Assembly (NCBI GenBank): GCA_029856435.1
Contig: JAHQXB010000125.1
Location: forward strand, 1 to 32,693
Length of the DNA: 32,693 nucleotides
Direction: 5' to 3'
DNA from: Candidatus Jordarchaeia archaeon
GTDB lineage: Archaea; Asgardarchaeota; Jordiarchaeia; Jordiarchaeales; Jordiarchaeaceae
The notes under the pieces are model-generated. The model was not told the DNA's origin, ran no database searches, and saw only the letters and a program-made list of their open reading frames with translations. Each line of letters starts with the position of its first letter. Position 1 is the stretch's first letter. Shown one piece after another: positions 2,175-32,539 of the stretch. The translations under genes were made by a program, and so were the position numbers.

Positions 2175-2861
2175 ATGAAGAAAAACCCACTACTACTATT
2201 AATACTAGTACTAACCATAAGCCTGTCAATACCCCTACTAACAGCCCAAACCCAACAAGTCTACGCCCAACCCGTAAGCCACACATACACATTCACAGAA
2301 ACCGTACCCGGAGACCACACAAACGTTGAAGTAAATTTCACCGTGACCACCGACACCGGAATTCTACTAGAGGGCAACATAGCAGTATGGATCCTCAGAA
2401 TCAACGCCAAAAGTAGCAGCACCATAAATAACATAACCATTAACGGTGAGTCCAAAGGAACGAAAATAAGCCTAGGACTACTGCTACCACTTTCTGACGC
2501 CTTTTCCTCCGACACAAATATGACCCCACTACCCCCCCTCCGAAATAGCTTTACCCTTGCGAAGTCTGAAAACGTGTTATTATTTACAGGTATTGCGGGT
2601 CTCCCCGCTCAGATTTCATTTAATCTCAGCGTAACCATAGAACCTTCATCTGGAAGTCCGACGACTGTTTATTTGGCTAGTGACGTGCCAACGGTGTCTT
2701 TGATACTACCCAATCCGGGCAATGCTCCGCCGGTAATTAACTATTACCTCATATTATTGTACTCCATGGTTTTTCTTGTGCCTATATCGATGATTCTCTC
2801 AAATCGCTGGTTGAGGAATCGCAAAATGAAGAAAGAAGTAGTTGGAGGAGGTGCAGTGTGA
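2175..2861 (+). CDS. exported, membrane-anchored protein of the ABC operon (unknown function)
   Basis: This 228-residue protein has a classic signal peptide (MKKNP, then a long Leu/Ile-rich core ending near 'VYAQP'), an outside domain of about 150 residues rich in Thr/Ser with several N-x-T/S sequons (NFT, NIT, NLS), and a C-terminal membrane segment near 189-207 followed by the basic tail 'RWLRNRKMKK'. It is therefore a type I surface protein. The ATG has AAGGAAAAGGA upstream. It is the first gene after the twin-palindrome promoter, and the next gene starts one base after its stop. I do not recognise a family. Base use changes inside the gene: up to about 2500 the coding strand is A/C-rich, then G/T-rich. 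Its place in the operon suggests an accessory subunit of the exporter. Confidence 0.75.
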   Translation: MKKNPLLLLILVLTISLSIPLLTAQTQQVYAQPVSHTYTFTETVPGDHTNVEVNFTVTTDTGILLEGNIAVWILRINAKSSSTINNITINGESKGTKISLGLLLPLSDAFSSDTNMTPLPPLRNSFTLAKSENVLLFTGIAGLPAQISFNLSVTIEPSSGSPTTVYLASDVPTVSLILPNPGNAPPVINYYLILLYSMVFLVPISMILSNRWLRNRKMKKEVVGGGAV

Positions 2862-2862
2862 G

Positions 2863-3573
2863 GTGCGGAACAGAATTTTAGTTTTCCTTGTGGCACTCGC
2901 TGTGATTGTAGGCATAACTTCTGCGGTTTATTTCCAGGCAGAACCTACACCAACTTATCCCAACACCCCCTTTGTATTGTATTATCTTAAGTATGACTAT
3001 ACTGTGCAGAGTAACGGTACCGCTACTACAAGTGGGTTAACATCGAGTGTGGTTTGGTTTGAGGGTTACGCTGATCCAAACACGGTTGTGGTTGCTGAGA
3101 GAGACGGCTTTTCGCCAATTCAATATAGTGAGGTAAATCTTTACACGCGGGAAACAAATACCACTGGAGTGCACTTTCTGTGGTGGATTCCTCCCTGGTT
3201 GCCGATTGGGGCTCCTGTGAGCATAGGTAATAATACTGGTGTTATCGTGGGTGAAACTGAGTTAAAGGCGCAACAATTGGTGAGAAATACAAAGACGGCC
3301 TTTTATTCAGGGTCGGATAGAACTATTATCGCTAACTATGATACAAATAGTGGTTTTCTAATCCAGTTAGAAATCAAAGAAGGAGAAAAGATAAGCATTT
3401 ACCAACTGCAATCCACTCTCGGAGCTTCTCTTGGAGTCTCCAACTATTACTATGCGCGTGTAATCTTCCTATGCTTATTCATACCTGCCTTGGTGATTTT
3501 CATATTGACACTTCCTTGGCCTTGGAGAAGGTGGAGTCAGAGCTTATCTAAATTTCTAAGAAAGGAGGTTTAG
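2863..3573 (+). CDS. second membrane-anchored extracellular protein of the ABC operon
   Basis: The 236-residue product has an N-terminal membrane segment ('ILVFLVALAVIVGITSAVYF'), an outside domain of about 170 residues with several N-x-S/T sequons, and a C-terminal membrane helix ('IFLCLFIPALVIFILTL') followed by a basic, Trp-rich end. GTG at 2863 is the likely start: it lies one base after the previous stop with GGAGGAGGTG about 10 bases upstream. A TTG at 2842 would overlap the preceding gene. Both membrane ends place the central domain outside, like the preceding protein. I recognise no known family. It may form a complex with the preceding surface protein and the ABC permease. Confidence 0.7.
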   Translation: MRNRILVFLVALAVIVGITSAVYFQAEPTPTYPNTPFVLYYLKYDYTVQSNGTATTSGLTSSVVWFEGYADPNTVVVAERDGFSPIQYSEVNLYTRETNTTGVHFLWWIPPWLPIGAPVSIGNNTGVIVGETELKAQQLVRNTKTAFYSGSDRTIIANYDTNSGFLIQLEIKEGEKISIYQLQSTLGASLGVSNYYYARVIFLCLFIPALVIFILTLPWPWRRWSQSLSKFLRKEV

Positions 3574-4529: not shown

Positions 4530-5556
4530 AACCAGAACGGTTCCAGAAAAACCAATAACAGTAGAGGAATCTTTAAGCGATAGAGCAGTCAACCTTTTAA
4601 ACCAGTCTATACGCCTCTGTTGGGAAGAAGTGAAAAACGCCTATAGGACAAAATCCTTCGTCGCCTTCGCTGCACTAATGGTGCTGCCCATGATAATAAT
4701 CCTCGTATCCTATGCAGTTACACAGTATCCCGACATGTTTAACCAGGTGCAAATCAGCCTATTCCTAAACGGCATATATGGAGAGGACGGAGCAATACTA
4801 ACCTTCAGAGACATTTTCGCAGGAACAATGGGCATAAGCACAGGACTCAGGGGTGGAATGGGCGGCTTTGCAACAATATACTACCTTGGGGTACCGATAA
4901 TCGCCATAGTAACAATTCTTACCTCCGGGATTATAGCTGGAGACCGCGAACATGGCACCCTACCCATATATGTCTCAAAACCAGTCTACAAAATTCAACT
5001 CGTTCTAACCAAGTTCTTGGGATTCGCTTTTATCAGCCTAATCTTAACCGGCCTAGTTTATTACACAATGTACTTCATATTTGCATTTTCTATCCTCGAA
5101 CCACTAGGAATACTAATGGAGGGCATAAGCTACACAATATACGTCCCAAACAATTTAACCATGGTAACCTGGCTTTTCATTTTAACAGTCGGCTCCGTCA
5201 CCACACTGTTCTCATCCATAATCGACCGCCCAATTCTTGCCGGCGTCATCGCCCTAATATATTTACTTGTTGTATCCTTCTTCTCAAGCTTCCTAATGTT
5301 TTTCCTAGGATCAATCGCCGACGCATTAAAATATCTTGACCTCGGGGGTTTAGCAACCAACATACTAAACGTAAACATTCTAGGATTCGAATACTACCAA
5401 GCAATATGGAACATAATCTCAAGCTTCGGCTTCATGGCACAACAACTACTAGGACAACTAGTAGACCCAACTACCGCCACCACAATACTAATCTCAATAT
5501 TACTTGTAACCCTCGGAGCAGCCTGCATAATAACACAGATACGCGAAGTAAAATAA
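4510..5556 (+). CDS. ABC-2 type transporter permease
   Basis: The 348-residue membrane protein has a soluble N-terminus of about 45 residues and then roughly six hydrophobic segments. The motif 'AGDREHGTLPIYVSKPV' is typical of ABC-2/NosY-like permeases at the cytoplasmic coupling helix. It overlaps the ATPase gene by 20 bases and ends the operon; a T-tract follows 14 bases later. With the ATPase and two surface-anchored partners it forms a complete exporter candidate. Members of this class move lipids, antimicrobial peptides or assembly factors; no substrate is evident. Confidence 0.88.
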   Translation: MSKKRVKTRTVPEKPITVEESLSDRAVNLLNQSIRLCWEEVKNAYRTKSFVAFAALMVLPMIIILVSYAVTQYPDMFNQVQISLFLNGIYGEDGAILTFRDIFAGTMGISTGLRGGMGGFATIYYLGVPIIAIVTILTSGIIAGDREHGTLPIYVSKPVYKIQLVLTKFLGFAFISLILTGLVYYTMYFIFAFSILEPLGILMEGISYTIYVPNNLTMVTWLFILTVGSVTTLFSSIIDRPILAGVIALIYLLVVSFFSSFLMFFLGSIADALKYLDLGGLATNILNVNILGFEYYQAIWNIISSFGFMAQQLLGQLVDPTTATTILISILLVTLGAACIITQIREVK

Positions 5557-5569
5557 CCCCCCACTATTA

Positions 5570-5576
5570 TTTTTTT
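5570..5576 (+). terminator. T-tract terminator after ABC operon
   Basis: A run of seven T lies 14 bases after the permease stop. Oligo-T on the non-template strand is the usual archaeal termination signal. There is no stem, which archaea do not need. Confidence 0.45.
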
Positions 5577-5671
5577 ATTCAAACAAAATCAAAGCAACCC
5601 CCTAAAAAAGGAAAAACAACATCTAAAGCTGGCGCTCGCCCACTGAACCAAGTCAAAATAAAAAAGAAGAT

Positions 5672-6472
5672 TCAGGTTTTAATTTTGCCCATATTCTTCA
5701 AAATATCTAAGGCCACCTTTCGACCGCTAAGCATGACTCCTCCAAAAATTGGTCCCATTCTGGGTCCGCCGGAGACTGCATTCGCTGCCATTCCTGCTAC
5801 ATATAGGCCGGGGTATACTTGTTTTGTGTATGCTACAAGCATTTTTTCTCCTATGTCTGCCCACATGGGCTTTTCTCCTATGATTTTTCCAGTTTCTGTT
5901 TCTAGTTTTGCTCCTGGGATTTTTCTTTGGACTATTTGGCATATTTCGGCAGCGTGTCCTGTTGCGTCTACTACATATTTGCATCTGATGGTCATAGGGT
6001 CTACGTGCAATTTGGCCATGTTTACCGCTGTCCACTGTATTACTACTCCGGTGATTTTGTCCGCTTCTCGAATCATGACGTCTTCGATGCCTATTAGGTT
6101 GAAAATCTTGGCTCCGGCGTCTATCGCGCCTGCTGTTAGTTTTGCTACGGTTTCCAAAGAGTTTGCTACAAAGTAGCCTTCTTGGAGTTCTTCGGTCTTT
6201 ATGCCAAACTCGTCCAGTATAAATTTGCCCTCTTTTTGCACTACTATTTTGTTGAACATCATTCCCCCACCGTGGCATCCTCCTCCAGTGCTGAGTTTTC
6301 TTTCGAACACCACGGTTTTGGCCCCTCCCTCCGCAAGATACTTGGCTGCTACTAGTCCTGAGGGTCCAGAGCCGGCGATTACGACATCTACATCTGTAGA
6401 GTCAATTAGTTCCTTCATGTACGCGTTTATTATTAGTTTGGTTATCACAATTTCGTCTAAACCAGTTGCCAT
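5672..6472 (-). CDS. thi4: thiazole synthase Thi4, sulfide-dependent type
   Basis: This 266-residue enzyme makes the ADP-thiazole precursor of thiamine from NAD and glycine. The N-terminal dinucleotide motif is GSGPSG (34-39), followed by the family signature around 'GGGCHGGGMMFNKIVV' (63-78) and 'VDATGH' (168-173). At the position of the yeast suicide cysteine the protein has His156 ('AKLHVDP'), as in methanogen enzymes that take sulfur from free sulfide and turn over catalytically. That implies a sulfidic, anoxic setting. The usual residue before HGGG is Trp or similar; here it is Cys66-His67. GGAGG lies 7 bases before the ATG. ThiC is encoded about 10 kb away, so both thiamine branches are represented. 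Confidence 0.92.
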   Translation of the reverse strand: MATGLDEIVITKLIINAYMKELIDSTDVDVVIAGSGPSGLVAAKYLAEGGAKTVVFERKLSTGGGCHGGGMMFNKIVVQKEGKFILDEFGIKTEELQEGYFVANSLETVAKLTAGAIDAGAKIFNLIGIEDVMIREADKITGVVIQWTAVNMAKLHVDPMTIRCKYVVDATGHAAEICQIVQRKIPGAKLETETGKIIGEKPMWADIGEKMLVAYTKQVYPGLYVAGMAANAVSGGPRMGPIFGGVMLSGRKVALDILKNMGKIKT

Positions 6473-17161: not shown

Positions 17162-18412
17162 TTATGGTGGGGCTCGAAACAAGTAGACTTTGACTTCCTC
17201 TCCTTCTTCGATGAATTGTACTTCTGATCCTATCTCTATGTATCCCTGCGACAGGGCTAGTGTAGTTATGGCTTCGGAGCCTGTAGGAACTGGATAAGCT
17301 ACAAGCTTTTCTTTTTCCAGTTGAAGTCGGACTGGTTGGAAATTTAATCTTCCCCTTTCAGAGTAAATTCTCTTTCCAGTTACTGCTTTGACTTGTGGTC
17401 TACTGGTGGGAGGGAGGCCTGCCCACCTTCTAATTTGTGGGTCTACAAGAGTGTAGTATACCATAAGTGCCGATGTGGGGTATCCAGGTAACATAAAGAC
17501 TGGTTTTCCATTGTATGCTGCTACTGCTGTTGGTTTTCCTGGTTTTATTGATATTCCATGTATCAGAAAGTCTGGTTTGCTCACCTCACTGAGTGCTGTT
17601 GGCACGGTGTCGCCTGGACCCTTTGAGGTTCCTCCCGAAAATATGGCAATATCCGCGTTTACTAGGGAGTATTTAATGGATTTTATTAATTCCTCTTTAT
17701 CGTCTGGTATGATCCCCCTATATATGGGGGATCCGCCTGATTGTTTGACGGCTTGTGTTATGGTGACTGAGTTAATGTCGTAGATTTTTCCGTATTCCAG
17801 TTTAGAGCCTGGAGTTATTATTTCGTTTCCGGTGCTGGCGACTGTCACCAATGGTTTGGAGTAAACATTTACTTCTGTAACGCCGGTTGCCGAGATTACC
17901 CCCAAATCTTGGATGCTTAGCACGGTTCCTTTGCTCAATATTTTCTGCTCTTTTCTTATGTCGCGGCCGATTTTAACCACATTCTCCTCGGGAGACACAG
18001 GTCGGTAAATTCGCACTTGGTCATCTTCCTCCTCGGTGTACTCTACCATTACAACAGCATCCGCGCCTTCTGGTATGGGTGCTCCTGTGGCTATTTTAAC
18101 GCATCCACCTTCTTCTACGTGTAGATTACTCTTTTCTCCCGCTTTTATTTCTCCCAAAATTCTCAGAATTTTCGCCTCCTCCTCTTCCGCCCCGAAGGTG
18201 TCACTTGCCCTAACTGCATACCCATCTCTTGCGGCTCTTTGAAAGTGGGGTACATCAATTGGTGAAAAGAAGTCTTCAGCAAGAACTCGCCCCAAAGCCT
18301 CATTTATGCTAATTTTTTCAATTTTCCTCTTTATGCTTATTTTGGACAAGGCTTGAATCACGTCTTGGAGAGAAGTTGTGGTGTAAAAACTCTTCTTAGC
18401 TTCCTCTCTCAT
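17162..18412 (-). CDS. moeA: molybdopterin molybdenumtransferase MoeA, second paralog
   Basis: The 416-residue MoeA inserts molybdate (or tungstate) into adenylylated molybdopterin. Domains: MoeA N-terminal (1-170), MPT-binding (175-315, 'TGNEI', 'SGGTSKGPGD', 'KPGKPTAVAAYNGKPVFMLPGYP'), C-terminal beta-barrel. In the active-site motif the usual SAMDGYA reads 'AARDGYA', so Met is replaced by Arg62 while catalytic Asp63 stays. GAGGAGAC precedes the ATG. It starts 14 bases after the other moeA. Two MoeA copies in archaea are often explained as separate Mo and W handling; the substitution hints that this one may be specialised. Confidence 0.92.
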   Translation of the reverse strand: MREEAKKSFYTTTSLQDVIQALSKISIKRKIEKISINEALGRVLAEDFFSPIDVPHFQRAARDGYAVRASDTFGAEEEEAKILRILGEIKAGEKSNLHVEEGGCVKIATGAPIPEGADAVVMVEYTEEEDDQVRIYRPVSPEENVVKIGRDIRKEQKILSKGTVLSIQDLGVISATGVTEVNVYSKPLVTVASTGNEIITPGSKLEYGKIYDINSVTITQAVKQSGGSPIYRGIIPDDKEELIKSIKYSLVNADIAIFSGGTSKGPGDTVPTALSEVSKPDFLIHGISIKPGKPTAVAAYNGKPVFMLPGYPTSALMVYYTLVDPQIRRWAGLPPTSRPQVKAVTGKRIYSERGRLNFQPVRLQLEKEKLVAYPVPTGSEAITTLALSQGYIEIGSEVQFIEEGEEVKVYLFRAPP

Positions 18413-18426
18413 TCTTTGTCTCCTCT

Positions 18427-19683
18427 TTACACTACGATGTGGGGGAAAAGGGCAACTCTTACAATTTCCCCCTCATTTATACCCTCCACATTTTCTGGAA
18501 TTTCCACAATTCCATCGGCGTTTACCATACTACTTATTACCCCTGAACCGCCTACCCTTATGGGCAATGCTAGTACGCCCTCCCGGGTTTCCTCTATTTT
18601 GACGCGGACAAAATCCCGTCTGCCCAGAGTTGAAGCAACTTTCTTGGACATCTTTGCCTCAACAAATATGCGGGGATCCAGTTTTTCGGCTCCCAGCATT
18701 TTTCTTATGGTGGGCGCAACAAAGACTGTAAAGGCGATCATGGTTGCCACCGGATAGCCTGGTAGACTAAAAATTGGTTTACCGTTGAGGAATGCGGCAG
18801 CCGTAGGACTCCCCGGCTTCATAGCCACTCCGTGAAAAATTAACTCCCCCCTCTTTTTTAGAAGATCTGGAGTGTAATCATATTTTCCCACTGAGGTTCC
18901 GCCTGAAAAAACTCCCATATCATATTTTAAGACTTCATCTATGGCCTTTTCAAGCTCTTCCGGTCGGTCCGGGTATATCCCAAGAATCTTAGGTTCGCCA
19001 CCATAGACTCTCACAAGAGAAGCCAGGGTATAACTATTGGTGCAAACAACCTTTCCCACATCGGGAGTAGTGTAAATATCAACAAGTTCGCTACCGGTGG
19101 AAACAATTGCTACTTGAGGTTTTTTCGTCACCTTGACTTCCGTAATTCCACATTGTAGGAGCATTGCCTCCTCTTGGGGTCTTACCTGTTTACCACTACT
19201 TATAATTTTTTGACCCATTTTCACATCCTCTCCAACCCTAGAAATGTTTTGGCCGGGTGTTACCGGACTGTAAACTTCTACCTCATCATTGATACGCTTA
19301 GTGTATTCAACCATAACTACGGCGTCAGCCTCTGGAGGTATAGGGGCTCCGGTAGCGATTTGAGCCGCCCACCCCCTAGACACTTTAATGCTGGGCGGTC
19401 TTCCCACAACCACTTCCCCTACCACCTTGAGTTTGATGGGATTATGCTGGCTGGCGCCGAAGGTGTCCCGTGCTATCACGGCGTAGCCATCCATAGCAGA
19501 CCTATCAAAGTGTGGAATATTTCTCGGAGAATAAATATCCTCATAGATTATTCTTCCCAAAGATTCTGTTACCGGAATTATCTCCGGCTCTAACCTCTTA
19601 ATTCTGCTGATTATCCTGTTTAGCGCTTCATTAACTAGGGTGTACTCAGCAAAACCTCTCATACGAGTGCTGAACTCATCCAA
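18427..19683 (-). CDS. moeA: molybdopterin molybdenumtransferase MoeA, first paralog
   Basis: A 418-residue MoeA with canonical 'SAMDGYA' (Asp65), 'GAPIPPEADAVVMVEYT', 'SGGTSVGKYDYTP' and 'KPGSPTAAAFLNGKPIFSLPGYP'. It begins at a TTG two bases after the moaB stop, with AAGGAGG nine bases upstream; an ATG at 19662 is the fallback. It is the third gene of moaC-moaB-moeA-moeA. This copy is closer to the textbook active site than its neighbour and probably does the main metal insertion. Confidence 0.93.
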   Translation of the reverse strand: MDEFSTRMRGFAEYTLVNEALNRIISRIKRLEPEIIPVTESLGRIIYEDIYSPRNIPHFDRSAMDGYAVIARDTFGASQHNPIKLKVVGEVVVGRPPSIKVSRGWAAQIATGAPIPPEADAVVMVEYTKRINDEVEVYSPVTPGQNISRVGEDVKMGQKIISSGKQVRPQEEAMLLQCGITEVKVTKKPQVAIVSTGSELVDIYTTPDVGKVVCTNSYTLASLVRVYGGEPKILGIYPDRPEELEKAIDEVLKYDMGVFSGGTSVGKYDYTPDLLKKRGELIFHGVAMKPGSPTAAAFLNGKPIFSLPGYPVATMIAFTVFVAPTIRKMLGAEKLDPRIFVEAKMSKKVASTLGRRDFVRVKIEETREGVLALPIRVGGSGVISSMVNADGIVEIPENVEGINEGEIVRVALFPHIVV

Positions 19684-19684
19684 A

Positions 19685-20245
19685 CTACTTTTCCTCCTTG
19701 GAGTCTTTGGAAATTTTAGTTTTCATGTGGCTGATAATATGTTCTATTTCTGGAAGAATTAAACTGGTGAGGGCAGTGTGCACGGCGTTAGGTGATCCCG
19801 GTAAACAAAAAATCACCGCACCTTTATAGGTTCCCGCCTCGGCCCTAGTTAACATGGCGGCTGTCCCAATATCCTTGTAGCTCTCGAATCTGAAGATTTC
19901 CCCGAATCCAGGTATCCTCTTCTCAAACAGGGGAGTAATGGTTTCTATGGTTACATCTCTGGGTGAGAGGCCGGTTCCTCCGCTGGTTATTATTACCAAT
20001 ATTCTCCTTCCTACAAATTCGTTAAGAGATTTAATTATGAGTTGGGGTTCGTCAGGAACGATAGAAACTGAAGCCAGCTTGTGGCCCGCTTCTTCTATTA
20101 GCTTCCTCGCTATGGCGGTTGTTTCATCAGTGCTTTTTGCGCCAGTTTGAATTTCCCGGTAGCGTGTATCGCTGATCACTATTAATCCAAAGTCTAGAGT
20201 CCCAACTGGTACTCTGTGTTTTTCATGGGTGCTTTTGGGTTTCAT
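19685..20245 (-). CDS. moaB: molybdopterin adenylyltransferase MoaB
   Basis: The 186-residue protein has the MogA/MoaB signature 'TSGGTGLSPRDVTIETI' and 'FCLPGSPNAVHTAL'. Archaeal MoaB adenylylates molybdopterin to prepare it for metal insertion by MoeA. ATG at 20245 has AAGGTAGAG upstream and overlaps the 3' end of moaC by 23 bases. An N-terminal stretch of about 15 residues is basic and unconserved. It is part of the same operon as both moeA genes. Confidence 0.93.
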   Translation of the reverse strand: MKPKSTHEKHRVPVGTLDFGLIVISDTRYREIQTGAKSTDETTAIARKLIEEAGHKLASVSIVPDEPQLIIKSLNEFVGRRILVIITSGGTGLSPRDVTIETITPLFEKRIPGFGEIFRFESYKDIGTAAMLTRAEAGTYKGAVIFCLPGSPNAVHTALTSLILPEIEHIISHMKTKISKDSKEEK

Positions 20246-20909: not shown

Positions 20910-21692
20910 ATGATTTTCCAAATAGTTGGCTACCAGAGACACGTGGGCAAAACGTCTACAGCGGTTAGTTTAATTCAAGAGTTTAAAAAGAGAGGGTTTC
21001 GAGTTGCCGCCATAAAACATTCTCACAAATATGACGTCAGCCAAGACACTAGGGGAGCGCTGGGCTCGAAAGACACGGAAAGATATTTGGAGGCGGGGGC
21101 AGATGTTTGTGGAGCGATTACAGATAGCAGCCTAGTTTTGATAACTCCCGAAAATTCTCTTAATTGGGCCTTAAATATGGTGGCTCCCTTTTCTGACATA
21201 GTAATTTTGGAGGGATTCCGAGAGGAGCGCCGTCCAAGAATAATCGTGGCGGAATCAGCAGACCAATTTTTTGAGCTCTATGTTGAAAACCTAGTGGTGG
21301 CGGTCACTGGCGTTATCGCAGAGAATGAGAGCGAAAAAGAGAAGGTTAAGGGGGCTTATCCTAATATCCCCATAGTTTCTAAAGCATCAGAGTTAGCTGA
21401 TCTTTTACTCTCCAGATTTGTGGATGAAGTGATTAGCCGGCTAGAAAAGAAAACTTGTGCGGTGTGCGGTTATCCAAACTGTGACGAATACGCCAAAGCA
21501 CTAATAAGGGGAGAGGCCAAGCTATCCGCATGTCCTCAAAATGTGGCTCAAACAGTTTTATATGTTAATAACAAGAGAATTGCCATTAATCCCTTCGTAC
21601 AGAGAATTATCAGCGCCACAATTCAAGGAATGCTATCCACTCTAAAAAACATAGACAAACTCGAGAACATTTCTATCCACATAAAAAGTTGA
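20910..21692 (+). CDS. mobB: MobB-type GTPase with C-terminal Fe-S cluster domain
   Basis: The first 165 residues are MobB, which assists molybdopterin-guanine dinucleotide formation: P-loop 'GYQRHVGKT' (7-15), 'VAAIKHSHK' and 'VILEGFREERRPRI'. The C-terminal 80 residues add Cys183-X2-Cys186-X4-Cys191-X16-Cys208 in 'CAVCGYPNCDEYAKALIRG', which is the pattern of the small 4Fe-4S domain seen in corrinoid/CODH and RnfB-type proteins (PF04060-like). Bacterial MobB has no such domain. A GGAGG lies 7 bases upstream. It is divergent from the moa/moe operon. A likely inference is redox or substrate-protein docking of cofactor delivery to anaerobic Mo/W enzymes. Confidence 0.88.
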   Translation: MIFQIVGYQRHVGKTSTAVSLIQEFKKRGFRVAAIKHSHKYDVSQDTRGALGSKDTERYLEAGADVCGAITDSSLVLITPENSLNWALNMVAPFSDIVILEGFREERRPRIIVAESADQFFELYVENLVVAVTGVIAENESEKEKVKGAYPNIPIVSKASELADLLLSRFVDEVISRLEKKTCAVCGYPNCDEYAKALIRGEAKLSACPQNVAQTVLYVNNKRIAINPFVQRIISATIQGMLSTLKNIDKLENISIHIKS

Positions 21693-25068: not shown

Positions 25069-25130
25069 CCCTTTCTGGAAAAAATTAAATATCTGATTAC
25101 AAAAAATTGTTACAGGTGGTGCTATATACT

Positions 25131-25574
25131 TTGGCAATAGACAAGATAGATAAGGCGATACTAAAAGAGATACTTAAAAACTCAAGACAGTCACACAGAG
25201 AGATAGCCAAAAAAATTGGAGTATCAGTGGGAACCGTAGTCTCTAGAACCAAAAAAATGGAAGAAGAGGGAATAATCAAAGGATACACGGCGATTCTAGA
25301 CTATGAAAAGCTGGGATACGACTTAACAGTGGTAACCGAAATAACGGTTTCCCAAGGCAAACTACTAGAAGTAGATAGAGAAATTTCCCAAAACCCCCAC
25401 ACAGTCGCAGTCTACGACGTAACTGGAACCGTAGACGCAATCATCATTGCCAAATTTAAAAACAGGAATGAACTAAGCAACTTTACGAAAAGTTTACTAT
25501 CAATCCCCTACGTGGAAAGAACCAACACCCACGTAGTTCTAAACACCATAAAAGAAAACTTTGAAATACTATAA
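25131..25574 (+). CDS. Lrp/AsnC-family transcriptional regulator
   Basis: This 147-residue protein has an AsnC-type HTH ('AIDKIDKAILKEILKNSRQS', 'REIAKKIGVSVGTVVSR') and a C-terminal RAM/effector domain with 'YDVTGTVDAIIIAKF' and 'VERTNTHVVLNTIKENF'. TTG at 25131 has GGTGGTG 9 bases before it and gives LAIDKID; an earlier TTG at 25107 has no ribosome site. It sits about 390 bases upstream of glnA on the same strand, which suggests nitrogen or amino-acid control. The gene is A/C-rich on the coding strand. Confidence 0.9.
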   Translation: MAIDKIDKAILKEILKNSRQSHREIAKKIGVSVGTVVSRTKKMEEEGIIKGYTAILDYEKLGYDLTVVTEITVSQGKLLEVDREISQNPHTVAVYDVTGTVDAIIIAKFKNRNELSNFTKSLLSIPYVERTNTHVVLNTIKENFEIL

Positions 25575-25967: not shown

Positions 25968-27308
25968 ATGCAATCCAAAGAAGACCTGAAGCAACAAATT
26001 ATTGAAAAGGTAAAATCCAGCGGAATAAGCCTCATTACCCTACAATTTGTAGACATATTCGGCACAGCAAAAACCTGTGCAATACCCCCCAGACAACTGG
26101 AAGAAGCCCTGGACAACGGCGTAGGCTTTGACGGCTCCTCAATTGAAGGATTTGCAAGGATCTACGAAAGTGATATGCGCTTAATTCCTGACCTCACCTC
26201 CTTCACAATCCTATCTCCAAGGATAACGGACAAGAAGGTAGCCACAATTTTTTGCGACGTATATAGACCAGAGGGCAAACCATTCGAAGGAGACCCCCGA
26301 TATGTTCTAAGAAGAAATCTAGAAGAAGCAAAGAAAATGGGCTTCAACTACTATGTGGGACCAGAACTAGAATTCTTCCTATTCAAACAAACAGACGGAA
26401 TAGAGCCAGTTCCCCAAGATCACGGGGGCTACTTCGATCTCGCACCCCTAGATTTAGCCTTTGAAGTTCGCGGGGAAGCCGCCGCAACCCTTGAAGATAT
26501 GGGCATAAATGTGGAAATGGGACACCACGAAGTGGCACCCGGACAACACGAAATTGACTTCAAATATGGCGACGCTCTGCACATAGCAGACGCTGTGATA
26601 ACCTATAAATATGTGTTAAAGGCCATCGCTAGGAAGCATAACCTTTTTGCGTCATTCATGCCTAAGCCGCTCTTTGGAGTAAATGGTTCAGGAATGCATG
26701 TTCATCAGAGTCTTTGGAACGGAAATAAAAACACCTTCTTTGATAAGAATGGAAAATATGGGCTTTCTGAGACTGCGCTTTACTTTATAGGCGGCCAGCT
26801 ACAATACATTAAAGAAATAATTTCTATTTTAGCGCCTACAGTAAACTCCTACAAGAGACTAGTTCCCGGATACGAAGCCCCAGTATACATATGTTGGGGA
26901 AGAAGAAACAGATCCGCCCTAATCCGGGTCCCAGAGTACTTCATTGGAAGAGAAAAATCTATTAGAGCTGAGCTTCGTTGCCCCGATTCTTCAACCAACC
27001 CCTACCTAGCATTCTCAGTGATGCTCAAAGCAGGCATTGAGGGAATTAAGAACAAGATAGAACCACCAAATCCCGTAGACGAAGATGTTTATGAATTCGA
27101 CGACGCCCAACTAAGAGAGTTTTATATTGATCAACTCCCCGGCTCACTTGGCGAAGCAATAAGCTACACAGAAAAAAGCAAGCTAGCCAAAGAAGCATTG
27201 GGAGACCATATCTTTTCAAGGTTCATAGAGGGCAAGAAGAAAGAGTGGAAAGAATTTTCAATGGCAGTAACCAGCTGGGAATGGCAAAGATACCTGCCAA
27301 TACTATGA
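25968..27308 (+). CDS. glnA: glutamine synthetase, type I
   Basis: The 446-residue enzyme makes glutamine from glutamate, ammonia and ATP. Family motifs: 'FDGSSIEGFARIYESDM' (54-70), 'GPELEFFLF' (131-139), 'GHHEVAPGQHEID' (185-197), 'NGSGMHVHQSLW' (239-250), 'RNRSALIRVP'. It is the shorter GSI-alpha type and lacks the adenylylation motif NLYDLPPE near the C-terminus. GAGAGGCG precedes the ATG. With the glutamate synthase genes downstream it forms a GS-GOGAT locus. Confidence 0.96.
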   Translation: MQSKEDLKQQIIEKVKSSGISLITLQFVDIFGTAKTCAIPPRQLEEALDNGVGFDGSSIEGFARIYESDMRLIPDLTSFTILSPRITDKKVATIFCDVYRPEGKPFEGDPRYVLRRNLEEAKKMGFNYYVGPELEFFLFKQTDGIEPVPQDHGGYFDLAPLDLAFEVRGEAAATLEDMGINVEMGHHEVAPGQHEIDFKYGDALHIADAVITYKYVLKAIARKHNLFASFMPKPLFGVNGSGMHVHQSLWNGNKNTFFDKNGKYGLSETALYFIGGQLQYIKEIISILAPTVNSYKRLVPGYEAPVYICWGRRNRSALIRVPEYFIGREKSIRAELRCPDSSTNPYLAFSVMLKAGIEGIKNKIEPPNPVDEDVYEFDDAQLREFYIDQLPGSLGEAISYTEKSKLAKEALGDHIFSRFIEGKKKEWKEFSMAVTSWEWQRYLPIL

Positions 27309-27960: not shown

Positions 27961-29256
27961 ATGAGATACGCTCTATTCTTGGGTTGTTTGATTCCTTATA
28001 GACTTCCCTCGTTAGAGATGACTGCAAGAAGGGTTCTAAAAATTTTAGATGTGGAACTTGAAGATTTATCTGATTTCTCTTGCTGTCCGAACACTATAGC
28101 AGTGGAGTCTGTAAATGAAGATTATTGGTACTCCTTGGCAGCAAGGAATCTTGCATTGGCTGAAAAGAGTGGGCTTGACATTCTGTGTCTGTGTAGTGGT
28201 TGTTCTGAAAGCCTTAAAAGAGCTAACTATGAATTGAAAAGGAATTATGCTTTAAGGGAGAGAGTAAACTCTAAACTTTCAGAAATAGGTTTAAAGTATG
28301 AGGGAAGCATTGAAGTGAAACATTTTGTGGAGGTTTTAATTGAAACAGGGTTAGATACTATAAGAGAAAAAATTGTTTATCCCCTAAATGGTTTGAAGGT
28401 TGCCTGTCACTATGGTTGTCATCTTCTCAGACCCAGCGAAGTAATCTCCTTTGACAATCCTTTGAAACCAGTGTCTCTGGATAAGTTGGTTCAAACTTTG
28501 GGAGCAGAAACCGTTAATTATGAAAATAAAATGCTTTGTTGCGGTAGCGGTCTCAGTTTAGTGAAATCGGATAAGGCGCAAATATTATCAAAAAGAAAAC
28601 TGGACGAGGTTAAGAATAAGGCTGACTGCTTGGTTGTCGTCTGCCCTTCCTGTTTCCAACAGTATGACTCGGTCCAGAAGCTGATGAAGGAAAAACCAGA
28701 CGTTCCAATATTTTATTATCTGGAATTATTAGGATTAGCGCTAGGAATAGAACCTGAAAGTCTAGGATTATCCGCCCACAAAATAAGCGTTTCGAACTTG
28801 GTAAGTAGAATTTACGGGAGTATAGAGTCCTTAAAGGTTCTGTCCAAATTTTTTGACCTAGCAGTTCTCAAAAATTGTGCCAGATGTGGCGCATGTTCCT
28901 CTGATTGCCCAGTAGTAGATGAGACTTTCAACCCTCATAATATAGTTAAAATGCTCTTGGAGGGAAAGCTGAAAGAAGTCTTGGATGCAGGAGAATTCTG
29001 GCGATGCACCCAATGTTATACCTGCCACGAGCTTTGCCCCCAAAACATGGGGCTAATAGAAATTTTTTCAAAACTAAAAAGCATAGCCTCTCAAAAAGAG
29101 CGCATTCCAGAAGACATCAGAAACCAAATTGCCAATGTTTTGAATAATGGCTTCGCTATTCCTCCCTCTCAAGTGCTAAGAAAACGTTTTGATCTTCCCG
29201 AACCACCTAAACCGAATCTGGAAAAGATTAAGAAATTGGTGAAAAGCAATGTCTAA
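27961..29256 (+). CDS. heterodisulfide reductase-like HdrB-HdrC fusion protein
   Basis: In this 431-residue protein the HdrB-like half has two cysteine-rich CCG motifs: Cys9, Cys41-Cys42, Cys78-X2-Cys81, and Cys153, Cys193-Cys194, Cys228-X2-Cys231. Such motifs bind the noncubane 4Fe-4S clusters of HdrB. The HdrC-like half has two 4Fe-4S motifs, Cys306-X2-X2-X3 to Cys316 (CARCGACSSDC) and Cys349-359 (CTQCYTCHELC). The order B-then-C is the reverse of methanogen HdrD. GGTGATTG precedes the ATG. The gene overlaps the next one by 8 bases, so it belongs to the glutamate synthase operon. It probably carries electrons to that enzyme; a disulfide reductase role is also possible. Confidence 0.9.
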   Translation: MRYALFLGCLIPYRLPSLEMTARRVLKILDVELEDLSDFSCCPNTIAVESVNEDYWYSLAARNLALAEKSGLDILCLCSGCSESLKRANYELKRNYALRERVNSKLSEIGLKYEGSIEVKHFVEVLIETGLDTIREKIVYPLNGLKVACHYGCHLLRPSEVISFDNPLKPVSLDKLVQTLGAETVNYENKMLCCGSGLSLVKSDKAQILSKRKLDEVKNKADCLVVVCPSCFQQYDSVQKLMKEKPDVPIFYYLELLGLALGIEPESLGLSAHKISVSNLVSRIYGSIESLKVLSKFFDLAVLKNCARCGACSSDCPVVDETFNPHNIVKMLLEGKLKEVLDAGEFWRCTQCYTCHELCPQNMGLIEIFSKLKSIASQKERIPEDIRNQIANVLNNGFAIPPSQVLRKRFDLPEPPKPNLEKIKKLVKSNV

Positions 29257-30112
29257 AGTAATAGATGGCTGTGGAATTAGTGGAATTATGAGTACGAAGA
29301 AAAAATTGATTCCCGGAAGCGAGATAGTTACTTCCATAGACTCGATGAACTTTAGGTATAATGGGTTGGGTGGAGGATTTGCGGGTTATGGAATTTACCC
29401 CGACTACAAGGAGTACTACGCGTTCCATTTAAATTTCGAGGATCAGGAGGCAAAGACTAAAACAGAAAACTTTCTCTATGAGCGCTTAAGAGTCATAGAC
29501 GATGAACCGATTCCTATAAAAAAATCTGGGCTTATCGACGACACCAAATCTATAAGTTGGCGTTACTTTGTAGGTCCACCAAAGGATATAGAAAACGCTG
29601 ATGACTATATTGTTAAGGTGGTTATGCATATAAATGAAAATATTCCTGGAGCCTATGTTTTTTCGAGCGGGAAAAATATGGGGGTTTTCAAGGCGGTTGG
29701 TTATCCCAAAGCTGTGGCAGACTATTTCCAAATCGAGGATTATTCGGCGTATATTTGGATAGCTCACGGAAGATATCCCACCAATACACCTGGGTGGTGG
29801 GGAGGGGCACATCCGTTTAACATTCTGGACTGGTCAGTGGTCCATAACGGTGAGCTTAGTTCTTACGGCACTAATAAGAATTTCTTAGAAATGTGGGGGT
29901 ATAAGTGCACCTTACTGACTGACACCGAGGTTTTAGCATACTTGTTTGATCTACTGGTAAGGAGGCACAAGATTCCCGTAGAAATTGTATGTAATGTTAT
30001 GACTCCTAAGTTTTGGGACGAAATTAATTCTGATACTAGCCCGAGAGGAAAAGCTCTTCGAGCGTTAAGAATGACATATGGGGGGCAATTGTTAATGGGC
30101 CATTTAGCATAA
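29249..30112 (+). CDS. glutamate synthase glutamine amidotransferase domain, N-terminal part before a frameshift
   Basis: Class II amidotransferase that releases ammonia from glutamine for the synthase. The nucleophile is Cys8 in 'DGCGISGIMS', so the first seven residues must be cleaved as a propeptide. 'HGRYPTNTPGWWGGAHPFN' and 'VVHNGELSSYGTN' are family motifs. The frame ends early at a stop after 'TYGGQLLMGHLA'. In the next frame the sequence continues as 'NGPFSIIVATNRF', so the gene is interrupted at a run of six G (30080-30085); one extra G would restore it. It overlaps the HdrB-HdrC gene by 8 bases. Confidence 0.88.
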   Translation: MSKVIDGCGISGIMSTKKKLIPGSEIVTSIDSMNFRYNGLGGGFAGYGIYPDYKEYYAFHLNFEDQEAKTKTENFLYERLRVIDDEPIPIKKSGLIDDTKSISWRYFVGPPKDIENADDYIVKVVMHINENIPGAYVFSSGKNMGVFKAVGYPKAVADYFQIEDYSAYIWIAHGRYPTNTPGWWGGAHPFNILDWSVVHNGELSSYGTNKNFLEMWGYKCTLLTDTEVLAYLFDLLVRRHKIPVEIVCNVMTPKFWDEINSDTSPRGKALRALRMTYGGQLLMGHLA

Positions 30113-30114
30113 TT

Positions 30115-30309
30115 GTGGCCACTAACCGTTTCATGTTTGGATTAACGGATAGGATCAAGCTTCGCCCATTAATAGCAGCTAGAAAGGACGACCTCTTCTA
30201 CATTGCTAGCGAAGAGTGCGCGATAAGAAGTGTCTGTGAAAATCCAGACATTGTTTGGGCACCTAGAGGGGGAGAACAGGTGATTGCATATGTTCAAGAG
30301 GTGACCTAA
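30115..30309 (+). pseudogene. C-terminal part of the glutamate synthase amidotransferase after the frameshift
   Basis: The 64-codon frame has 'FGLTDRIKLRPLIAARKDD', 'IASEECAIRSVC' and 'WAPRGGEQVIAYV', which are the end of the class II amidotransferase domain of glutamate synthases. It is not a separate gene: the homology begins upstream of the apparent start, at about 30094, in the same frame. Its stop overlaps the ATG of the next gene by one base, as expected of an intact operon. Either a sequencing error in the G run or a recent mutation or programmed slip divides it. Confidence 0.88.
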
Positions 30310-31802
30310 TGTTTCCTCCTCAATTCAGTGTGGTAATTGACAATGATAAATGTGAAAAATGCAAGAGATGTACGATAAACTGCTCTTTTGAAGCCTTATC
30401 ATACGACGAGAAAGAAGATAAGATAGTCTCAAATGACCAAAAATGTGTTGCATGTTTAAGGTGTGCCAGTAAATGTCCTAAAGGCGCCATAACTATTAAA
30501 AAGAACGAAATCACCTTTTCTCCACATCCAACTTGGACTCCTGAAATACGATTGGACATAATTAAGCAAGCAGAAACCGGCGGCATGATAATCGCTGGCT
30601 GTGGAAACGACCTAAACTATCCCTGCTTATTCGACAGAATAGTTATTGATGCTTGCCAGGTGACTAACCCCTCCATAGACCCTTTAAGAGAACCAATAGA
30701 AGTATCTACCTATCTTGGCAAAAAACCCAAACAGTTGAAAATTGGAGACGATTTCAGTTTAGAAACAGAAATAACTCCAAACATTATGATTAATACTCCC
30801 ATAATCATCGGTCACATATCATATGGCGCCATCAGTCTTAACGCCCATAAAGCTTTAGCCATGGCGGCGAGCAAAGCTGGAACCCTAATGGGCTCAGGTG
30901 AAGGAGGCTTACACCCTGACCTTTACGAATTCGGAGACCATATAATAGTACAAGTGGCTTCTGGGCGTTTCGGCGTTCACTCCAAATATTTAGAGGTTGG
31001 CGCCGCCATAGAAATTAAAATAGGGCAGGGCGCAAAACCGGGAATAGGAGGTCATCTACCTGGGGAGAAAGTCACCGAAGATATTGCTGAAACTAGAATG
31101 ATACCAGTTCATACAGATGCCTTATCACCAGCTCCCCATCACGACATCTACTCAATTGAGGATTTGTCTCAGCTAATCTATGCTCTCAAAGAAGAAACAG
31201 ATTACATGAAACCTGTCTTCGTTAAAATAGCCGCAGTTCACAATAGCGCAGCCATAGCCAGCGGAATTGCTCGGGCAGGAGCAGACGCAATAACCATCGA
31301 TGGTTTCAGGGGAGGAACTGGCGCAGCTCCCAAAATTGTTAGAAACCATTTAGGTATACCCATAGAGGTAGCTATTGCCAGCGTAGACAAAAGGCTGCGC
31401 GATGAAGGAATAAGAAATGAAGTTTCACTCATCGCCAGTGGAAGCATAAGATCTGCTGCTGATGTCGTCAAGGCCATAGCTCTTGGGGCTGACGCTGTAG
31501 CAATTGTTACACCAGCTCTCATAGCTATGGGTTGCACGGTGTGTCAACAGTGCTATAGGGGGACGTGCGCGTGGGGAATTTGTACAACCCGACCAGATTT
31601 GGCTAGAAGACTTGATCCAGAAGTCGCTTCGCGAAAAGTTTACAACTTGATTAGCGCTTGGACTATGGAAATTAAAGAAGTCCTAGGAGCTTTGGGAATG
31701 AATGCAATTGAAAGTCTACGATACAATAGAGAACGCTTGAGAGGAGTAGAGATTGACCAAAAGACTTTAGAAATCTTGGGAATAAAAGCGGCAGGTGAAT
31801 AA
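30309..31802 (+). CDS. gltB: glutamate synthase, ferredoxin/FMN synthase subunit
   Basis: The 497-residue archaeal-type subunit starts with two 4Fe-4S motifs (Cys15/18/21/25 and Cys46/49/52/56), absent from the bacterial GltB. The FMN-binding TIM barrel follows ('SYGAISLNAHKALAMAA', 'GSGEGGLHP', 'KIGQGAKPGIGGHLPGEKV', 'DGFRGGTGAAP'), then a Cys-rich 3Fe-4S region 'CTVCQQCYRGTCAWGIC' near residues 415-431. It makes glutamate from 2-oxoglutarate and ammonia. The extra ferredoxin-like clusters suggest it takes electrons from a partner protein, for which the HdrB-HdrC fusion is the candidate. Confidence 0.95.
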   Translation: MFPPQFSVVIDNDKCEKCKRCTINCSFEALSYDEKEDKIVSNDQKCVACLRCASKCPKGAITIKKNEITFSPHPTWTPEIRLDIIKQAETGGMIIAGCGNDLNYPCLFDRIVIDACQVTNPSIDPLREPIEVSTYLGKKPKQLKIGDDFSLETEITPNIMINTPIIIGHISYGAISLNAHKALAMAASKAGTLMGSGEGGLHPDLYEFGDHIIVQVASGRFGVHSKYLEVGAAIEIKIGQGAKPGIGGHLPGEKVTEDIAETRMIPVHTDALSPAPHHDIYSIEDLSQLIYALKEETDYMKPVFVKIAAVHNSAAIASGIARAGADAITIDGFRGGTGAAPKIVRNHLGIPIEVAIASVDKRLRDEGIRNEVSLIASGSIRSAADVVKAIALGADAVAIVTPALIAMGCTVCQQCYRGTCAWGICTTRPDLARRLDPEVASRKVYNLISAWTMEIKEVLGALGMNAIESLRYNRERLRGVEIDQKTLEILGIKAAGE

Positions 31803-31804
31803 AA

Positions 31805-32539
31805 ATGCAAATAGATGCTAAAGGCCTTAGCTATACTGAGTTGAACAGGAAATTAAAAGAGCTTGTATCAAAAAAAGATGCTTTAGAAATAGACGTATTG
31901 AATGTTAATGGTCACCGTTACATAGGAACCGGATTAGAAAACTGTAAGGTAATTCTACGTTTGTATGGTGTTGCTGGAAATGATTTGGCAGCGTTTATGA
32001 ACGGTGGTTCAATATTTGTTTATGGAAATGCTGAGGACGGTGTGGGAAACACCATGAATGCAGGATTAGTTGTTATCCATGGAGATGCAAGAGACGTGGT
32101 AGGTTACTCCATGAGAGGAGGGAAAATTTTCATTAAAGGCAACGTGGGCTACCGAGCGGGTATCCATATGAAAGCCTATAAGAACCATTTCGCAAGTATA
32201 ATAGTTGGGGGAAAAGCCGAAGATTTTCTAGGAGAATATATGGCCGGTGGAATAATAGTAGTCCTGAATTCTAATAATGAGAAACATCCTGTAGGAAAAT
32301 TCACTGCAACTGGAATTCACGGAGGAACAATATTCGTTAGAGGCAAAATTTCAGAAGAAAATCTAGGAATCGGCGCCGAAATAGGGGCACCTAATGAAGA
32401 AGAACTAAGCCTTCTGAATGATCTAATTTCTGAATATTTCTCATATTTCCAAGTCGATGGAAATTTGGATGGCTCTGAATTCACCAAAATTTACTCTAAA
32501 AGTCACCGCCCATTTGCAAAACTCTACGTCTTAGAGTAG
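31805..32539 (+). CDS. glutamate synthase GXGXG (alpha/C-terminal) domain subunit
   Basis: The 244-residue protein is a right-handed beta-helix with repeating glycine pairs ('FMNGGSIFVYGNAEDGVGN', 'MNAGLVVIHGDARDVVG', 'MRGGKIFIKGNVG', 'MAGGIIVVL'). In bacterial GltB it is the C-terminal domain that joins the others; in archaea it is a separate gene. It starts two bases after the synthase subunit, giving the order amidotransferase, synthase, GXGXG. A T-tract follows the stop by about 50 bases. Confidence 0.95.
   Translation: MQIDAKGLSYTELNRKLKELVSKKDALEIDVLNVNGHRYIGTGLENCKVILRLYGVAGNDLAAFMNGGSIFVYGNAEDGVGNTMNAGLVVIHGDARDVVGYSMRGGKIFIKGNVGYRAGIHMKAYKNHFASIIVGGKAEDFLGEYMAGGIIVVLNSNNEKHPVGKFTATGIHGGTIFVRGKISEENLGIGAEIGAPNEEELSLLNDLISEYFSYFQVDGNLDGSEFTKIYSKSHRPFAKLYVLE

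Follow-up and report, generated by a model that had tools for sequence, protein, structure and literature searches.

An HdrB-HdrC fusion as the probable electron-input subunit of a glutamate synthase in Asgard and other archaea, with a thiol pair as candidate donor

From which donor does a glutamate synthase draw its electrons when its operon is led by a gene for a fusion of HdrB and HdrC? The donor is NAD(P)H or ferredoxin in the glutamate synthases characterised so far, and F420H2 has been proposed for the enzyme of methanogens (PMC3448663). The locus that raises the question lies in a stretch of 32,693 nucleotides (contig JAHQXB010000125.1, hereafter the window), which is part of a 3.54-Mb Asgard genome of the Freyarchaeia/Jordarchaeia type. 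Among named organisms, its closest relatives are Candidatus Freyarchaeota SQRJ_82 and Jordarchaeum madagascariense, whose fusion proteins are 86% and 79% identical, respectively. We consider it fairly probable that the product of hdrBC-gltABC is an archaeal-type glutamate synthase of four subunits, with the fusion as a dedicated electron-input subunit that works in the thiol-oxidising direction. That the fusion serves GltABC as electron-input subunit at all is very probable, and the identification of the donor as a thiol is evenly balanced.

The operon and its leading gene

The genes are arranged in the order lrp, glnA, hdrBC, gltA, gltB and gltC, with a gap of 652 bases between glnA and hdrBC in which an Rfam search for an RNA regulator gave no match. 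The glnA gene adjoins the fusion also in the loci L009, L010, L119, L120 and L122. As the first-pass annotation had noted, the fusion gene overlaps the amidotransferase gene by 8 bases (ATGTCTAA), which the ORF coordinates of the window confirm. Pfam searches identified a Glu_synthase domain (PF01645, 460.5 bits) and a Fer4 dicluster in GltB, and subunits with class II amidotransferase (PF00310) and GXGXG (PF01493) domains in the same operon. An FMN-type Glu_synthase domain with two N-terminal [4Fe-4S] motifs is thus accompanied by both partner subunits of archaeal-type GltABC. The ORF of gltA in the window stops at 287 amino acids because of a one-base deletion, relative to L009, near 30081 in the G-run at 30080-30086; in L009 and L010 the gene is intact at 353 amino acids. 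Continued in the shifted frame, gltA would reach 30309 and overlap the start of gltB as TAATG. The frameshift may lie in the organism or in the assembly.

Coordinates of the hdrBC-glt locus and of the cluster sites encoded by the fusion gene
Feature	Position in the window	Strand	Remarks
Lrp/AsnC-type regulator, 5' of glnA	25107..25574	+	Pfam HTH_24, AsnC_trans_reg; same position in locus L009
glnA, type I glutamine synthetase	25968..27308	+	TIGR00653 537.7 bits, above cut-off
HdrB-HdrC fusion, 431 aa, proposed electron-input subunit	27961..29256	+	
First HdrB cluster site, C9, C41, C42, C78, C81	27985..28203	+	aligned to 5odc_B C9/C41/C42/C78/C81
Second HdrB cluster site, C153, C193, C194, C228, C231	28417..28653	+	aligned to 5odc_B C153/C193/C194/C231/C234
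HdrC ferredoxin motifs C306/C309/C312/C316, C349/C352/C355/C359	28876..29037	+	alignment A1
gltA, class II glutamine amidotransferase subunit	29249..30309	+	broken frame near 30081; ORF stop 30112
gltB, FMN glutamate synthase subunit	30309..31802	+	N-terminal 2x[4Fe-4S] motif C15-C56, plus C409/C412/C415/C420
gltC, GXGXG subunit	31805..32539	+	PF01493 100.2 bits

The three-part architecture is the same as that of N-methylglutamate synthase (MgsABC), and the operon could in principle encode a related enzyme of that kind. This we regard as highly improbable: GltB has the Fe-S N-terminus of archaeal GltB and groups with archaeal GltBs in our tree, glnA adjoins, and a redox input would be pointless for such an enzyme. 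The first-pass annotation had also pointed to two extra 4Fe-4S motifs in GltB as ready to accept electrons. These motifs are indeed present, but they are not peculiar to this operon, since all 55 archaeal GltBs compared share the eight [4Fe-4S] cysteines without exception, whichever donor gene adjoins. Because they are universal in archaeal GltB, the clusters are no evidence for a particular donor, and we discarded them as such. Their universality implies that GltB can accept one-electron input from several partners.

The fusion consists of an HdrB module (about residues 1-284), a helical linker (278-295) and an HdrC module (about 300-416). Both modules, and the order in which B precedes C, had been proposed from inspection of the ORF and were recovered with Pfam (two CCG stretches and one 4Fe-4S dicluster at 303-362) and with NCBIfam (HdrB at 3-283, 280.9 bits, followed by HdrC at 304-416, 74 bits). 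The HdrB score is below the TIGR03288 cut-off of 345.15 bits, as is, just, that of a separate HdrB of the same genome (342.1 bits). When aligned to solved HdrB, the fusion has all ten cysteines of the HdrB clusters. Those of the first site are kept in each fusion that spans the positions, and those of the second are invariant among the aligned fusions. H150, G152 and H154 are also kept, as is Y151 in all fusions except one; P12 and R14, which are conserved in ordinary HdrB, are missing from many fusions and retained in that of the window. The HdrC half has eight cysteines for two [4Fe-4S] clusters. Four non-Asgard fusions in alignment A1 (L067:8725-10032, L069:2685-3998, L070:9183-10493 and L071:3-1250) are without the first of them, C306, and in these proteins the first HdrC cluster may be a [3Fe-4S] cluster or use a different ligand. 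The HdrB score below cut-off, the loss of P12 and R14 from many fusions and the missing C306 count against the main reading. In the AlphaFold model of the fusion (pLDDT 89, pTM 0.82), the HdrB half overlays solved HdrB at 1.4-1.5 Å with 36-40% identity, the closest solved chains being methanogen HdrB (1.4 Å to 5odc_B), and the HdrC half overlays 5odc_C at 2.3 Å. Compared with ordinary HdrC, the HdrC half is shortened at each end.

Two other parts of the window attracted our attention. A molybdenum/tungsten cofactor cluster occupies 17162-20245 and 20910-21692: a MoCF_biosynth gene and a pair of moeA paralogues adjoin one another on the minus strand, and just beyond them is a mobB gene with an added Fe-S motif. 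At 2175-3573, just before an ABC transporter pair, there are two successive ORFs (228 and 243 amino acids) without a Pfam match.

Linkage and inheritance of the fusion

To define the distribution of the fusion, we surveyed 228 Asgard genomes, a set of 393 genomes that includes about 165 other archaea, and in addition the phyla of G238 (29 genomes) and G249 (a single genome). Full-length fusions were found directly beside gltA in 32 of 32 cases in which the contig was long enough to be read (G096 and G098, at contig ends, are not counted), namely all 26 Asgard cases and all 6 from two other archaeal phyla. No full-length fusion away from gltA was detected in any of these genome sets. The remaining HdrB matches cover the HdrB part only, and those inspected were separate hdrC-hdrB genes, several of them near hdrA-like genes. 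One match that spans residues 2-435 (G175) was rejected as a fusion, as it consists of separate hdrC and hdrB genes. The separate hdr genes that we examined in fusion-bearing genomes likewise have hdrC followed by hdrB. The co-conservation with split glutamate synthase that the first-pass annotation had proposed as a test was therefore seen in every readable case and across three archaeal phyla; absence from other such operons would have spoken against it, and the fusion is present in others. This linkage supports the view that the fusion is the electron-input part of glutamate synthase.

Viewed from the side of the synthase, the fusion is present in 25 of the 28 readable Asgard gltABC units; this number includes G092 and G156, where the fusion is linked to gltA and gltB lies on a different contig. 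In the other three, which are G081, G178 and the second copy of G177, the position of the fusion is taken by a Pyr_redox_2/Rubredoxin_C flavoprotein, and a ferredoxin-like protein is encoded nearby. FrhB is encoded 3' of gltC in 12 methanogen-type operons, and a donor gene is lacking altogether from many archaeal gltABC operons. From this pattern of fusion, flavoprotein, FrhB or no donor gene, it follows that donor modules have been exchanged on a constant GltABC core. The flavoprotein resembles NADH oxidase and rubredoxin reductase, and together with the ferredoxin-like protein it is the presumed donor in its operons (L084:11284-12666, L085:10749-12107, L086:1302-3027). G177 has gltABC units of both types, one linked to HdrBC and one to the NADH-oxidase-like protein.

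The GltB tree placed all HdrBC-linked GltBs in a single clade of 32 (support 88/83), and the FrhB-linked and NADH-oxidase-linked GltBs each formed a clade of their own (100/100 and 95/99, respectively), which shows that GltB and its neighbouring donor gene are inherited together. Three members of the HdrBC clade are without the fusion. Two of these (L068, L121) are at contig ends; in the third (L072), glnA replaces the fusion and GltD-type and DHODB-Fe-S proteins are encoded nearby, which is consistent with loss and replacement of the fusion. The HdrB tree splits the fusions into an Asgard and a non-Asgard group, with a single origin not being rejected (AU p = 0.21). Since the GltB tree favours one clade, repeated independent recruitment of the fusion is disfavoured.

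Related combinations were seen in three further loci. Two of them (L078:700-8848 and L079:3-7896) contain, without gltA, genes for a large HdrA with an FlpD/MvhD domain, HdrC, HdrB, an FrhB-type protein, a GXGXG protein and a deep-branching GltB-like protein, possibly representing an HdrABC-coupled relative of glutamate synthase. In the third (L080, G050), FrhB, HdrC and HdrB are encoded 3' of a GltB-like frame.

Candidate electron donors

The first-pass annotation had suggested a thiol/disulfide or a ferredoxin couple. By analogy with thiol:fumarate reductase, the likeliest source of electrons would be the oxidation of a thiol pair, the main rival being HdrA or ferredoxin. The fusion would then fill the role that GltD (NADPH) has in bacteria and that has been proposed for FrhB-type proteins (F420H2) in methanogens. 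The oxidation of a dithiol or thiol pair would take place between the pair of non-cubane clusters in the HdrB half. The electrons would travel singly along the two [4Fe-4S] clusters of the HdrC half, enter GltB at its two N-terminal [4Fe-4S] clusters and go on to FMN. The FMN would reduce 2-iminoglutarate formed from 2-oxoglutarate and the ammonia freed by GltA. HdrBC would thus work as a thiol oxidase, much as in thiol:fumarate reductase, where the acceptor is fumarate, and Mvh/HdrABC enzymes would refill the thiol pool. The overall half-reaction of glutamate synthase has a potential near −60 mV and thiols lie between −140 and −280 mV (older and revised values for CoM-S-S-CoB), so that the flow would be downhill and would spare NADPH and ferredoxin. 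The revised potential of CoM-S-S-CoB is cited in PMC12054007. HdrB sites with both non-cubane clusters perform disulfide chemistry (PMC12054007), and the strict retention of both sites argues that the fusion does so too, rather than acting as a mere relay. The general statement, that many Asgard archaea and some other archaeal lineages feed ammonia assimilation from a low-molecular-weight thiol pair instead of NADPH, F420H2 or ferredoxin, we would place a shade below an even chance.

A relay is what the main rival reading would make of the fusion: its HdrC half would dock an HdrA-type flavoprotein or ferredoxin, and the HdrB clusters would only pass electrons to GltB. The separate HdrBCs of the window genome near large hdrA-sized genes speak for such a conduit, as do the loci L078 and L079, in which HdrA, HdrC, HdrB, FrhB, a GXGXG protein and a GltB-like protein are encoded in a row; moreover, the several archaeal gltABC operons without a donor gene suggest that GltB may draw directly on ferredoxin. 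However, no hdrA is present beside the fusion operons examined, the HdrC half is not only shortened but also scores lower than ordinary HdrC (49-79 versus 106-129 bits), and a plain relay would not need an intact pair of non-cubane sites. We therefore regard the conduit as rather unlikely.

Alternatively, HdrBC might sense the thiol pool or be coupled to it, or a disulfide might be reduced by means of glutamate oxidation or with spare electrons of ferredoxin. The known HdrB enzymes mostly reduce disulfides and their chemistry is reversible, which would suit such a role. Nevertheless, the adjoining glnA and lrp-type regulator and the amidotransferase subunit point to assimilation, and the oxidation of glutamate by a thiol couple is uphill by its potentials, which makes this reading improbable.

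That neither GltD nor an FrhB-type subunit adjoins the operon had been stated in the first-pass annotation, and neither was found there by Pfam or among the neighbours. It had also counted a GltD encoded elsewhere and co-purifying with the synthase as an argument against a new donor. The real donor could then be NADPH, delivered by a distant GltD-family protein, with an unrelated job for the fusion. Most of the 21 fusion carriers searched have some GltD-family protein, and the window genome has one, on contig C4. The C4 protein, however, adjoins a gene resembling indolepyruvate-ferredoxin oxidoreductase (IOR), the family was not found in at least three of the 21 carriers (G157, G339 and G249), and the fusion is linked exclusively to gltA. 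As these carriers are without a GltD-family protein, GltD is not needed, and we rejected it as the true donor; the reading as a whole has very little probability. In G238 the sole GltD-family match is weak and lies within its own fusion. The C4 protein (L042, G000:C4, about 4585-6200) has C-terminal 4Fe-4S motifs and is encoded directly 3' of the IOR-like gene. Proteins of the glutamate/leucine dehydrogenase family occur in nearly all fusion carriers, so GS-GOGAT is not their sole possible route to glutamate.

If a thiol is oxidised, CoM and CoB are the obvious candidates, since cycling of CoM/CoB has been proposed for Jordarchaeia (PMC9723677). Mcr was not found in 20 of the 21 carriers and is present in one, so that CoM/CoB is probably not the donor in most of them. 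ComA was not found in 17 of the 21, which is weak evidence on CoM because the control, M. acetivorans, also gave no match. CoM/CoB as the general thiol was thus rejected on the Mcr count, the ComA count not being decisive. Four carriers have ComA, among them the window genome and both of its genus-mates; CoM is therefore possible as the thiol in the window genome and unlikely as a general one. An 'unidentified heterodisulfide' has been invoked for the Mvh/HdrABC enzymes of Freyarchaeia and Atabeyarchaeia (PMC11291895). Because an HdrB site normally handles disulfides, the operon provides a handle on the thiol of the Asgard HdrABC enzymes, a question left by that study. If the proposal is true, nitrogen assimilation would serve as a sink for the Asgard heterodisulfide cycle. 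A further input module, shared by Asgard families and two other archaeal phyla, would alter the picture of ammonia assimilation in the archaea closest to eukaryotes.

Comparison with known systems

What would be new here is the proposed electron-input subunit, HdrBC, on an already known archaeal glutamate synthase. In a search that covered papers accessible without subscription we found no published description of an HdrBC-linked glutamate synthase, and a prior mention elsewhere is possible. Putative F420-dependent glutamate synthases, FGltS(I) and FGltS(II), have been reported in methanogens (PMC3448663, PMC3087415), and a third in an ANME group (PMC9012536). They share with the present operon the split GltABC, a dedicated redox subunit in the operon, and the same GltB family with its clusters, but their FrhB/FdhB-type subunit, which is absent from the window operon, lies 3' of gltC, whereas HdrB-HdrC lies 5' of gltA. 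NADPH-GOGAT (GltB-GltD) has the same Glu_synthase, GATase and GXGXG functions; in the window the synthase is divided into split subunits without GltD in the operon, the only GltD-family protein being the one on C4 beside the IOR-like gene.

The other relatives are found among the Hdr enzymes. Soluble HdrABC resembles the fusion in its ten HdrB cysteines, its folds and the 36-40% identity of the HdrB half. The fusion differs in being one chain with B first and an HdrC half shorter at both ends, and in having GltABC as its partner, with no hdrA in the window operon or in the related fusion operons by inspection of the neighbours. HdrD of HdrDE also unites HdrB and HdrC in one chain. However, HdrD has the order C-then-B, its partner is the membrane protein HdrE and it is a terminal reductase, whereas the fusion is B-then-C, a difference from HdrD that the first-pass annotation had rightly drawn, and no hdrE is among the annotated neighbours. 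TfrAB differs in module order, the CCG part being C-terminal in the TfrB model NF004898 and N-terminal in the fusion, and in the partner, which here is an FMN-type GltB and not a fumarate reductase flavoprotein, no such flavoprotein being encoded in the operon. It nevertheless combines HdrC-like and HdrB-like modules in one subunit, through which thiols feed electrons to a biosynthetic reductase.
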